In this document: positions 18,135 to 56,737 of the stretch, piece after piece
Layout of the letters: the number at the start of each line of letters is the position of its first letter
How positions within the stretch are numbered: the stretch's first letter is position 1
From: Verrucomicrobiia bacterium
GTDB taxonomy: Bacteria; Verrucomicrobiota; Verrucomicrobiia; Limisphaerales; DASXHY01
Direction of reading: 5' to 3'
Assembly (NCBI GenBank): GCA_035629175.1
Contig: DASPIL010000047.1
Coordinates: 1-61,074 of the forward strand
DNA length: 61,074 nt
Notes under the pieces: model-generated
What the model saw: only the letters and a program-made list of their open reading frames with translations
What the model was told of the DNA's origin: nothing
The model's database searches: none
Program-made: the position numbers and the translations under genes

Positions 18135-18767
18135 TCACTGCCTCAGGTATTTCGCCACAGCCTCACCCGAGGAGCGCACGTGAAGTTTTTCATATATCCT
18201 GCGGATGTAGTTCCGGACGGTATGAATGCTGACCCCAAGATGGTCGGCAATCTGTTTGTAAGCCTGCCCTTCAGCCAAACCATCCAGAACTTCACGTTCG
18301 CGCGGCGATAACTCGCCAATCTCGCTCTTGTGGGGAGTGGGCGCCTGCATCGATTGGACGACTTTTCGCGCTATCGGAGCGGACATCGGCGAACCGCCTT
18401 CATGCACTTCCCGGATTGCCTCAAGCAGTTTTGCCGGGGCGACGCGCTTCAACAGGTAGCCGCTGGCTCCCGCGGCCAGCGCGCTAAAGATTTTCTGGGT
18501 GTCTTCGAAAACCGTCAACATCACCACCTGGGTCTTTGGCATCAGCGGCTTGAGCCGCCGCACGCACTCGATCCCGCTCAGGCCGCCGAGATTGATGTCC
18601 ATCAGCACGACGTCGGGCTGTTCTTTCGGCAATTGTTCCAGCGCCTCTTCGCCGCTCCCGAAAACGCTCAGGCAGCGAAAGCCGGGTGCCGCCCCAACAT
18701 AGCCAGCGATGTTCTCTCGCAGCTCGGCTTCATCGTCGACGATTGAAACAGTGATTGGCGCTTGCAT
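18135..18767 (-). CDS. NarL/FixJ-type response regulator
   Basis: 210 residues. The receiver domain (1-120) has acidic residues DD (11-12), phospho-acceptor Asp57 in VVLMDINL, the switch Thr in MLTVFED and Lys in YLLKRVAP. A LuxR-type HTH (about 145-205: LSPREREVLDGLAEGQAYKQIADHLGVSIHTVRNYIRRIYEKL) follows. It starts 8 nt after the stop of the adjacent periplasmic-sensor kinase and ends 1 nt before the GH2 start, so all three form one operon. NarL-type regulators dimerise on inverted repeats; candidate sites in this window are the palindromes at 11104, 15786 and 21832. Confidence 0.95.
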   Translation of the reverse strand: MQAPITVSIVDDEAELRENIAGYVGAAPGFRCLSVFGSGEEALEQLPKEQPDVVLMDINLGGLSGIECVRRLKPLMPKTQVVMLTVFEDTQKIFSALAAGASGYLLKRVAPAKLLEAIREVHEGGSPMSAPIARKVVQSMQAPTPHKSEIGELSPREREVLDGLAEGQAYKQIADHLGVSIHTVRNYIRRIYEKLHVRSSGEAVAKYLRQ

Positions 18768-53101: not shown

Positions 53102-53654
53102 GCCCTGGCACCACGCCGCCAACGCCAATTTGGCGCTTCAAGCAATATGCCGCATTCGCCACGTATTTTTCCGCCCAATATTTCAATCCATCTCGCTCCT
53201 GCTGTGTGAGCGCCCGCGTCACCTTGGCGGGCGCGCCCAGGACCATTGATCCGGGAGGAATCCGGGTTCCCTGCGTGACAAGAGCCCGCGCGCCAATGAT
53301 CGACTGCTCGCCAATAACGGCGCCATCGAGAATGATCGCCCCCATGCCCACCAGCACTTCGTCGCCAACGTGACACGCGTGCACCACGGCGGAGTGGCCA
53401 ACAGTCACGTAGTTGCCGAGCATGCAGGGGAAATCATCGGCAAGGTGCAGAACGGCGTTGTCCTGGATGTTGGAGTGATGGCCCACAACGATGCGATTGA
53501 TATCGCCGCGCAGCACGGCGTTGTACCAGACGCTGGAGTGATCGCCCAGTTGCACATCGCCGACAACGATGGCTCCTTTTGCAATGTAAACGTCTTTACC
53601 AAGCCGGGGCGGTTGGCAGAGGTAGGTCTGCAATTGTTCTTCAAGCTTGCACAT
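53055..53654 (-). CDS. Gamma-carbonic-anhydrase-like hexapeptide protein
   Basis: 199 residues. Left-handed beta-helix hexapeptide repeats (YIAKGAIVVGDVQLGDHSSVWYNAVLRGDINRIVVG) and the three metal-type His sites (DNAVLHLADD, VGHSAVVHAC) of the gamma-CA-like/YrdA group. C-terminal helix after LGAPAKV. Active-site residues needed for strong CO2 hydration cannot be judged by eye. It overlaps the squalene-synthase-type gene tail to tail by 47 nt. A structured leader with an intrinsic terminator lies just upstream (53690-53770), suggesting control by attenuation. Confidence 0.92.
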   Translation of the reverse strand: MCKLEEQLQTYLCQPPRLGKDVYIAKGAIVVGDVQLGDHSSVWYNAVLRGDINRIVVGHHSNIQDNAVLHLADDFPCMLGNYVTVGHSAVVHACHVGDEVLVGMGAIILDGAVIGEQSIIGARALVTQGTRIPPGSMVLGAPAKVTRALTQQERDGLKYWAEKYVANAAYCLKRQIGVGGVVPGPKSNAQGSATVPADR

Positions 53655-53689
53655 GATTGTTCATTACACACGAGAAGCGCGTTGGAAAC

Positions 53690-53770
53690 AAAAAACCCGC
53701 CGGTTTGACCCGGCGGGCTTAACCTCAGTTCCTCCGCCCGCCGTCTTAGAACCCAACCCGAAAAGACGGC
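53690..53770 (-). promoter_or_regulatory. Riboswitch/attenuator-like leader with intrinsic terminator
   Basis: Read on the minus strand, three mutually exclusive stems occur in order. P1: GCCGTCTT (53770-53763) with AAGACGGC (53747-53740). Antiterminator: CGGCGGGC (53743-53736) with GCCCGCCG (53718-53711). Terminator: CCCGCCGG (53717-53710) with CCGGCGGG (53703-53696) followed by six Us (53695-53690). P1 shares 4 nt with the antiterminator, which shares 7 nt with the terminator. The coding start is 36 nt beyond the U-run. No known riboswitch class recognised. It could also be the terminator of a small RNA. Confidence 0.55.
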
Positions 53771-53834
53771 AGGTGTTGTTTCCGACGTCAAAGTTTGAAA
53801 TTTATTCAGAGTGGTTGAGAATGAAGCGGCACGT

Positions 53835-54764
53835 ATGACGAGAAAGCCATCCAAGCGATCGCCGGCAAAACGAAAGCGTCTGCCGCGTTCGTTCAAGGAA
53901 CTGACTCCTTCGAACCACTTCAATCCGCGCACGTTCTTTCATGAAATGGTTTGGAAAACCCTGCTCACGCGCAGGAAAGGAGAACATCGGCAGCCCGCAT
54001 TTCCGAAATTGCAAGACGGCCAGGTCGCGATCACGTGGATCGGGCACGCGTCATTCCTGATTCAGTTCACGGATTTAAATGTGCTGGTCGATCCCAATTT
54101 CGCGAACTGGCTTTTTCTCCTGAAGCGAATCAAACGCTCGGGTTTGCGCATCGAGGATCTTCCGCCGATTGATCTGGTTCTTCTGACGCACGCCCACTTC
54201 GATCACTTTCACAAGCCATCCCTGCGGCGGCTTCCGCATCCGAAGATTGGCGTCATGCCTTGGGGCGTTGGCGACCTCGCGCTTGACCTAGGGTTTGAAC
54301 GTGTAATCGAGCTCGCGTGGTGGGAAAGCTTCTCGCACACGGATTGGAAGGTGACGCTGACGCCAAGCAAGCACTGGGGCGCGCGAACGTTGCGCGATGA
54401 TCATCGCGGCTACGGCGGTTTCATTTTGGAGCACCAAGGCCGCCGCATCTATCATGCGGGCGACAGCGCCTACTCGCACTGCTTTAAGGAGATCGGACGG
54501 CGCATGCCCCCGGAAATCGCCCTCCTGCCGATCGGCGCCTATTATCCAGACACGTTTCGCCGCGTCCACATGGGTCCCGACCAGGCAATGAAGGCGTTCA
54601 AGGATCTCGGCGCCCAGCAGCTGGTGCCAATGCATTACGGAACATTCCGGCTTTCATTTGAGGACATGGACGAACCGCCGCAATGGCTGATGGAATTGGC
54701 GGGCGAGCAAAAGGTCTCCGACAAGGTGCGCATCCTTGATGAAGGAGTCCCAATCGTGTTTTAA
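53835..54764 (+). CDS. MBL-fold hydrolase (UlaG/NAPE-PLD-like)
   Basis: 309 residues from ATG 53835; GTG 53811 in frame is an alternative. Very basic N-terminus (TRKPSKRSPAKRKRLPR), then VAITWIGHASFLIQF, metal motif LTHAHFDHFHK, TLTPSKHWGAR, YHAGDSAYS and VPMHYGTF. This is the MBL branch with L-ascorbate-6-phosphate lactonase UlaG and N-acylphosphatidylethanolamine phospholipase D; the pattern HWG-AR resembles NAPE-PLD-type enzymes. Substrate unknown. Not in an operon with the diverging gene. Confidence 0.9.
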   Translation: MTRKPSKRSPAKRKRLPRSFKELTPSNHFNPRTFFHEMVWKTLLTRRKGEHRQPAFPKLQDGQVAITWIGHASFLIQFTDLNVLVDPNFANWLFLLKRIKRSGLRIEDLPPIDLVLLTHAHFDHFHKPSLRRLPHPKIGVMPWGVGDLALDLGFERVIELAWWESFSHTDWKVTLTPSKHWGARTLRDDHRGYGGFILEHQGRRIYHAGDSAYSHCFKEIGRRMPPEIALLPIGAYYPDTFRRVHMGPDQAMKAFKDLGAQQLVPMHYGTFRLSFEDMDEPPQWLMELAGEQKVSDKVRILDEGVPIVF

Positions 54765-56173: not shown

Positions 56174-56737
56174 GTGAAAAGAATCAAGCTACTAACGGCG
56201 GTTTGTCTGTTGAGCCTCGGCCCAAGTGCATATGCGGGCGGCCCTGGCCATCGGCATTGGGGGCACGGGCACCGTCACCACCGGCATCACTCACATTCCT
56301 CGTTTTCGGTTCACTTCGGCTACCCGGCCTATCGGCATTATTCCTATTATCCGGCATACGCTTATCCCGTGTCGCCCGCGTACACATACAGCTACGCCTA
56401 CCCGGATTATTCTTACAGCCGCCCAAACTATGCGGTCGCGGGAACGCTGCTGGGCGCGCTTGCAGGCGGGATAATCGGCCACAACGTGCATCGCCAGGGT
56501 TGGGAAGGCGCCGGTATTGGCGCAGCCGCGGGACTCGTCCTGGGCGGAGTCGCGGAAAGCCGGGCTCGTGCGCGCGAACGCGACCTCCAGTCCGCGCCCT
56601 CTGTTTCATACAGCGTTCCCGACGCGCAAACGATAAACGACGCGCCCACAGTTCCGGCCGCACCTCGGATCCAGAGCGCTCCCGCTTATGCGCCGGCGGG
56701 ATCCATGACCAGTGCGAACAGCCTCTTCGGCCGGTGA
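56174..56737 (+). CDS. Exported His/Tyr-rich glycine-zipper protein
   Basis: 187 residues. Starts at GTG 56174; signal peptide to AYAGG (about 22). A His-rich stretch (HRHWGHGHRHHRHHSHS), which may bind metal, and a Tyr/Pro-rich stretch (about 48-85) are followed by a glycine-zipper (AVAGTLLGALAGGIIGHNV, GIGAAAGLVLGGVAE), as in outer-membrane lipoproteins of the Rcs/YMGG type. C-terminal part is Ala/Pro-rich. Probably envelope-located. Precedes the LpoB cluster by 27 nt and may be co-transcribed. Confidence 0.8.
   Translation: MKRIKLLTAVCLLSLGPSAYAGGPGHRHWGHGHRHHRHHSHSSFSVHFGYPAYRHYSYYPAYAYPVSPAYTYSYAYPDYSYSRPNYAVAGTLLGALAGGIIGHNVHRQGWEGAGIGAAAGLVLGGVAESRARARERDLQSAPSVSYSVPDAQTINDAPTVPAAPRIQSAPAYAPAGSMTSANSLFGR

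Follow-up and report, generated by a model that had tools for sequence, protein, structure and literature searches.

The minus strand of a 61,074-nucleotide stretch from a Verrucomicrobiia bacterium (contig DASPIL010000047.1 of assembly GCA_035629175.1; hereafter the window) carries, directly upstream of a gene for a γ-carbonic anhydrase (CA)-like protein, three overlapping hairpins termed P1, antiterminator and terminator. An earlier note on this DNA had proposed that they form a transcription-attenuation device or riboswitch for CA, or alternatively a small RNA whose 3′ end is the terminator. All three hairpins were found on the minus strand where that note had located them, and their pairwise sharing of nucleotides was confirmed. 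Comparison with orthologous loci, however, makes it likely that they are the remains (promoter, tail and terminator) of a deleted gene for a small secreted protein, and not a metabolite switch of CA. In the ancestral order, a divergent gene for a metallo-β-lactamase (MBL)-fold protein would have been followed by a promoter, the small secreted-protein gene, its 3′ untranslated region (UTR) with an intrinsic terminator, and the CA gene with a promoter of its own. The lineage of the window would then have deleted the small open reading frame (ORF), retaining the promoter and the 3′ UTR with its terminator. Because the promoter-like element is conserved in relatives at the corresponding position, an RNA of ~90 nt bearing a 5′ hairpin and the terminator is probably still produced (Table 1), which fits the second idea of the note. 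The terminator would finish this RNA and shield the CA promoter behind it; since CA would come from a separate, nearly leaderless transcript, the hairpins would not attenuate it.

A collection of 142 loci contained 116 distinct loci with the CA gene (tblastn E ≤1e-30, at least 150 bases upstream) once duplicates had been removed via the 120 bases around the CA start, the window being L124. As in the window, a divergent MBL gene lies upstream in 64 of the 116. Promoter element, small ORF and terminator occur together in 21 of these 64 MBL-adjacent loci, whereas eight have the promoter and terminator without the ORF (the window, L010, L011, L046, L053, L064, L066 and L071). The remainder comprises loci with promoter and ORF (three), ORF and terminator (three), promoter only (two), ORF only (two), terminator only (two) or none of these elements (23). 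The counts are script scores; inspection by eye shows a small ORF in L103 that the hidden Markov model overlooked, and only a weak terminator in L073. That no upstream gene exists for the terminator to serve, as pointed out previously, is true of the window, but 24 of the 64 comparable loci have an upstream gene followed by a terminator of this kind. Promoter and terminator tend to co-occur in the 35 loci in which no small ORF was detected (both in eight, promoter only in two, terminator only in two, neither in 23; Fisher p = 7e-5). A quick CA tree built from the 64 loci gives seven changes for the state in which promoter and terminator are present without the ORF; as 28 of the 61 inner branches are open, repeated loss is likely, though the number of losses is not firm. 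An order-wide search added two further ORF-less units, L183 and L190.

The small ORF of the relatives encodes a product of ~110-175 residues, which has a signal-peptide-like start (by eye), a AGDREWATAGKVLTG-like block and repeats of the PVYYAPAPV type; the Pfam PXPV repeat was detected in one of two proteins tested. A Shine-Dalgarno-like 4-mer (AAGG counted) precedes the small ORF in 20 of 29 loci, compared to 9 of 116 for CA by the same rule. Searching with the L043 protein gave no copy in the genome of the window; as controls, the same query found one copy, at the locus, in each of six ORF-bearing genomes and none in four ORF-less genomes. Given the missing copy and the behaviour of the controls, the gene has most likely been lost rather than moved, and we infer that the direction of change is loss of the ORF. 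In L183, the 5′ UTR of the small gene adjoins its former 3′ end (by eye). Two further loci show shortened forms. In L190, an ORF-less unit located ~147 bases ahead of the CA start retains the terminator, together with a remnant of 8 codons at a start codon of the old type. In L093, the small gene is shortened to about the signal peptide, with its stop overlapping the CA start codon; the promoter element lies 144 bases before the CA start and no terminator was found at this locus, where CA may be driven by the promoter of the small gene.

The promoter-like 25/26-mer is present in 34 of the 64 MBL-adjacent loci, compared to none for the reversed pattern; in forward orientation it was found in one of the 52 loci without an adjacent MBL gene. 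Upstream of the orthologous genes it consists of a -35 element and a CGTC-like -10 element at near-fixed spacing, a form typical of promoters for extracytoplasmic function (ECF) sigma factors. The pattern TGAATAAA-N14-GTC has a single match in the 5.4-Mb genome of the window, at the locus itself. The element is probably the promoter that once drove the small gene, and would presumably be read by an ECF-type sigma factor. The genome has 59 matches to Sigma70_r4_2 at E ≤0.001, 52 of them above the cut-off. One such domain, an ECF-type sigma factor region 4, is encoded in the window itself, at 18183-18320 on the minus strand.

The terminator is a GC-rich hairpin with a T tract, and its stem is kept by compensatory change. 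Covariation was assessed in a 28-locus alignment that combines 22 of the 29 promoter- and terminator-bearing loci (selected for a T run between -52 and -38) with six of the eight CA-bearing regions from the order-wide search (L191 and L193 excluded). Six of the eight stem pairs show compensatory change, a number reached by 12 of 500 shuffles, and 95.5% of the stem cells are paired, which none of the 500 shuffles matched. Moreover, 32 cells are changed on both sides, compared to 7.6 in shuffles, and the covariation score of 0.458 exceeds both the shuffled value of 0.169 (0 of 500 as high) and the values of at most 0.135 obtained when the stem was slid. The terminator is preceded by a 3′-UTR motif with the core AGGAACYG; of the 29 loci with promoter and terminator, 13 have this core in the last 45 nt ahead of the terminator (4 of 8 ORF-less, 9 of 21 ORF-bearing), on a background of 94 matches in 1.33 Mb with both strands summed. 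A longer form of the motif has a single match in the genome of the window. The motif was also considered as a general companion of terminators, an idea set aside; in a strict scan, 7 of 82 terminators carry AGGAACYG in the preceding 60 nt. Nor was AGGAAC retained as a candidate second ECF -35 box, since by eye its spacing from the terminator is not constant. CsrA-type binding of the AGGAA loop was a further idea considered.

The CA protein is a hexapeptide protein with sequence similarity to solved γ-CAs (best match 9qev, E 1.9e-49; 42 PDB sequences at E ≤1e-10), in line with the γ class. Its exact function is uncertain, since the score of 185.7 bits against the NCBIfam γ-CA model is below the 250-bit cut-off. 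In 21 of the 29 promoter- and terminator-bearing loci, the distance from the beginning of the terminator's T run to the CA start codon is 40-46 nt. A box of the TTAA/TAAA type begins at -14 to -11 before CA in 30 of the 116 loci, against zero to four loci per bin for ten other 4-base bins, and Shine-Dalgarno-like 4-mers (GGAG, GAGG, AGGA) were found at -18 to -5 in only four of the 116. An AT-rich box together with scarce Shine-Dalgarno sequences is the picture expected if the box acts as a -10 element for a CA transcript with little or no leader. These features suggest that CA has a promoter of its own beyond the terminator; if transcription starts at the TGTAAT box of the window, the upstream hairpins would be unable to attenuate it.

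In contrast to the terminator, P1 and the antiterminator do not stand out from chance. The whole 96-nt stretch folds with a z-score of -4.61 (equalled by one of 200 shuffles), yet the 59 nt 5′ of the terminator, including P1, reach only -1.32 (equalled by 9% of 200 shuffles), so that the folding signal is that of the terminator. The minus strand of the window has 28 uninterrupted hairpins of at least 11 pairs (G-U allowed, loop ≤20), P1 and the terminator among them. The antiterminator matches the 5′ arm of the terminator over eight consecutive pairs, as do 12% of 100 shuffled upstream sequences; across the 34 terminator-bearing loci, the best such match is equalled by a median of 72% of shuffles, and by at most 5% in two of the 34. 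The minimum-energy fold consists of P1 and the terminator (-43.0 kcal/mol), and enforcing the antiterminator gives -33.9 kcal/mol, at a cost of ~9 kcal/mol; the antiterminator is absent from the minimum-energy fold even after the 3′ arm of the terminator has been blocked. None of the nine other ORF-less units has a P1-like excess of structure 5′ of the terminator (z -1.6 to +0.7), and the P1-like hairpin of L064 is missing in L066. P1 was compared across relatives outside the window's own family and genus, no genomes of which surfaced in the searches for relatives, including a G010-centred search and a scan of 320 genomes of the order. P1 and the antiterminator show no conservation in the orthologous loci. 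Only the terminator is both clearly beyond chance and conserved among the three hairpins.

The overlap of the P1, antiterminator and terminator strands, in an order fit for attenuation, is what speaks for a device controlling CA, but we regard this explanation as very improbable. The antiterminator is at chance level and the competing fold is favoured, as described above, while P1 has no counterpart in the other ORF-less units; in 24 of the 64 loci the terminator trails a separate small gene, and CA apparently has its own downstream promoter. In addition, the 5′ arm of P1 begins ~4 nt past the predicted RNA start, which would limit any sensing part to the 15-nt loop and the linker. A scan of the whole window gave no Rfam match at the gathering score. 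At E ≤10, 301 bases gave eight sub-threshold matches, the best being anti-hemB with 20.4 bits against the 49.5 required (E 0.012), which we read as generic resemblance to terminators or hairpins. Judged by the Rfam gathering scores and by the lack of excess 5′ structure in the ten ORF-less units including the window, no conserved sensing domain was found. A search for further copies of the leader in the window's own and related genomes returned something at E ≤1 in 50 of 58; the best of these matches are confined to the terminator, and many of the remaining ones are short pieces at chance level. Alternatively, the promoter-like element could serve the divergent MBL gene, whose start it adjoins, leaving the minus-strand terminator as an unused leftover. 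This is also improbable, though less so, as the element is absent from 30 of the 64 MBL loci, and in 32 of the 34 loci that bear it is accompanied by the small ORF and/or the terminator.

A further possibility extends the deleted-gene model and is compatible with it, namely that the ORF-less unit functions as a small RNA, which arose as the 3′ UTR of the small gene's mRNA, became independent upon loss of the ORF and acts in trans through its 3′ half (the GGAGGAACYG region) independently of Hfq. The joint retention or loss of promoter element and terminator in ORF-less loci agrees with it, as do the ORF-less state with its seven changes among the 64 loci and its recurrence in L183 and L190, and the AGGAACYG core shared by ORF-less and ORF-bearing units. 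Between the ORF-less loci L064 and L066, the unit is identical at 104 of 109 positions, including all of the final 49, compared to 117 of 146 at the fourfold sites of CA and MBL (binomial 4e-6). Between L046 and L183, the promoter element is identical at 23 of 25 positions and the 95 nt directly ahead of CA at 80 of 95, compared to 61 of 89 CA fourfold sites; the pair binomials assume independent sites, and the comparisons were picked after viewing the data. However, the middle of the RNA is unalignable by eye between L046 and L183, and 5 of 14 positions differ in one stretch of L064/L066. The stretch from terminator to CA is equally conserved in this pair (a 37-base gap aside, 37 of 38 aligned bases agree), so that constraint on the promoter, the terminator and the CA promoter may explain much of the identity. 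Besides, the genome has no match to Hfq, no target is known for the candidate RNA, and the state changes rest on the tree with open inner branches noted above. On balance, a working small RNA is a minority explanation, rather unlikely as it stands. Slightly less likely still is the general form of this idea, in which the single-copy, ECF-type-promoter mRNA of a small secreted protein would repeatedly and independently have become a stand-alone noncoding RNA by ORF deletion in this order of Verrucomicrobiota, because its 3′ UTR (GGAGGAACYG and terminator) regulates without Hfq and remains in use after the protein has gone.

Several points weigh against the deleted-gene model itself. The constraint in the close ORF-less pairs exceeds what a plain relic needs. 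The promoter pattern was derived from the same loci in which it was counted, so that its counts are descriptive. The short form TGAATAAA-N13-SGTC is not locus-specific by itself, since 153 out of 320 genomes from the order contain a match to it; of the 17 stretches fetched from this order-wide search, 16 of which were centred on matches chosen as likely, eight have a CA gene (L193 is identical to L053). The CA box of the window, TGTAAT at -14 to -9, is a variant outside the counted pattern. Finally, the deletion cannot be dated, because the searches brought up no genome of the same family.

Attenuators and riboswitches have a terminator upstream of the start codon and overlapping alternative pairings. 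The window resembles them in both respects, but differs in that neither a conserved antiterminator nor a sensing domain was found and in that CA is apparently transcribed from further downstream. The terminator resembles intrinsic (Rho-independent) terminators in its GC-rich stem, short loop, T6 tail and covarying stem, with no notable difference. CpxP is a small periplasmic stress protein. The 3′ end of cpxP is conserved and yields CpxQ, a regulatory 3′-UTR-derived small RNA (PMC9438474). The present locus is similar in that a small exported-protein gene has a conserved 3′ end; unlike cpxP/CpxQ as described there, it has no Hfq match in the genome, no known target and, in the window, no ORF. 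The promoters of ECF41 are described as TGTCACA, 16 ± 1 bp and CGTC, with a single target transcript reported in two species (PMC3426412). Compared to these promoters, the element of the window is likewise bipartite with CGTC at the -10 place and has one match in its own genome, whereas its -35-like part is TGAATAA(A) and its spacing to CGTC is ~2 bp shorter. The parts are therefore of known kinds, namely an ECF-like promoter, an intrinsic terminator and a candidate 3′-UTR-type RNA, and what is unusual is the repeated ORF-less state. A literature search on carbonic anhydrase, riboswitches and Verrucomicrobia gave nothing on the subject as judged by title, and among the matches listed for γ-carbonic anhydrase and attenuation none named γ-carbonic anhydrase. 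In open-licence full texts, no work was found on Verrucomicrobia with leaderless transcription starts or with small RNAs ending in intrinsic terminators, and ECF promoter motifs of Verrucomicrobia are scarcely covered. An ORF-less relic can mimic a riboswitch when a single genome is read, and orthologous loci help to settle the matter. Should the residual RNA have a function, the locus would represent a natural series of intermediates from an mRNA with a regulatory 3′ end to a pure small RNA.

Table 1. Elements of the locus, in window coordinates.
Feature	Coordinates	Strand	Basis or remark
Promoter-like element TGAATAAATTTCAAACTTTGACGTC (TGAATAAA-N13-CGTC), ECF-sigma-like form	53784..53808	-	motif in related loci
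Predicted residual transcript, ~90 nt	53690..53776	-	span from promoter-like element to end of T6 tail; start predicted from promoter spacing
P1 hairpin, 11 bp, 15-nt loop	53737..53773	-	arms 53773-53763 and 53747-53737
Antiterminator candidate, GGCGGGC with GCCCGCC	53742-53736 with 53718-53712	-	
3′-UTR motif CGGAGGAACTGAGG, core AGGAACYG	53723..53736	-	motif counts before terminators
Intrinsic terminator, stem-loop and T6 tail	53693..53720 and 53695-53690	-	covariation, 28 loci; stem and tail overlap by 3
Putative CA promoter TTGTTT-N17-TGTAAT	53663..53691	-	TGTAAT at -14 to -9 from start codon; by eye
γ-Carbonic-anhydrase-like hexapeptide protein, 199 aa	53055..53654	-	start codon at 53654; profile and structure-sequence matches
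Divergent MBL-fold metallohydrolase gene, conserved neighbour	53811..54764	+	protein matches and synteny

Two observations lie beside the locus. The plus strand of the window encodes, at 56174-56737, another small protein rich in His and Tyr; it contains a YMGG-like glycine zipper (Pfam PF13441) and does not resemble the lost family. In addition, the record titles of L067, L077, L083, L088 and L111 (Akkermansia muciniphila, Proteobacteria, Klebsiella pneumoniae) clash with their CA proteins, which are 70-74% identical to that of the window, and these metagenome-assembled genomes are probably mislabelled.
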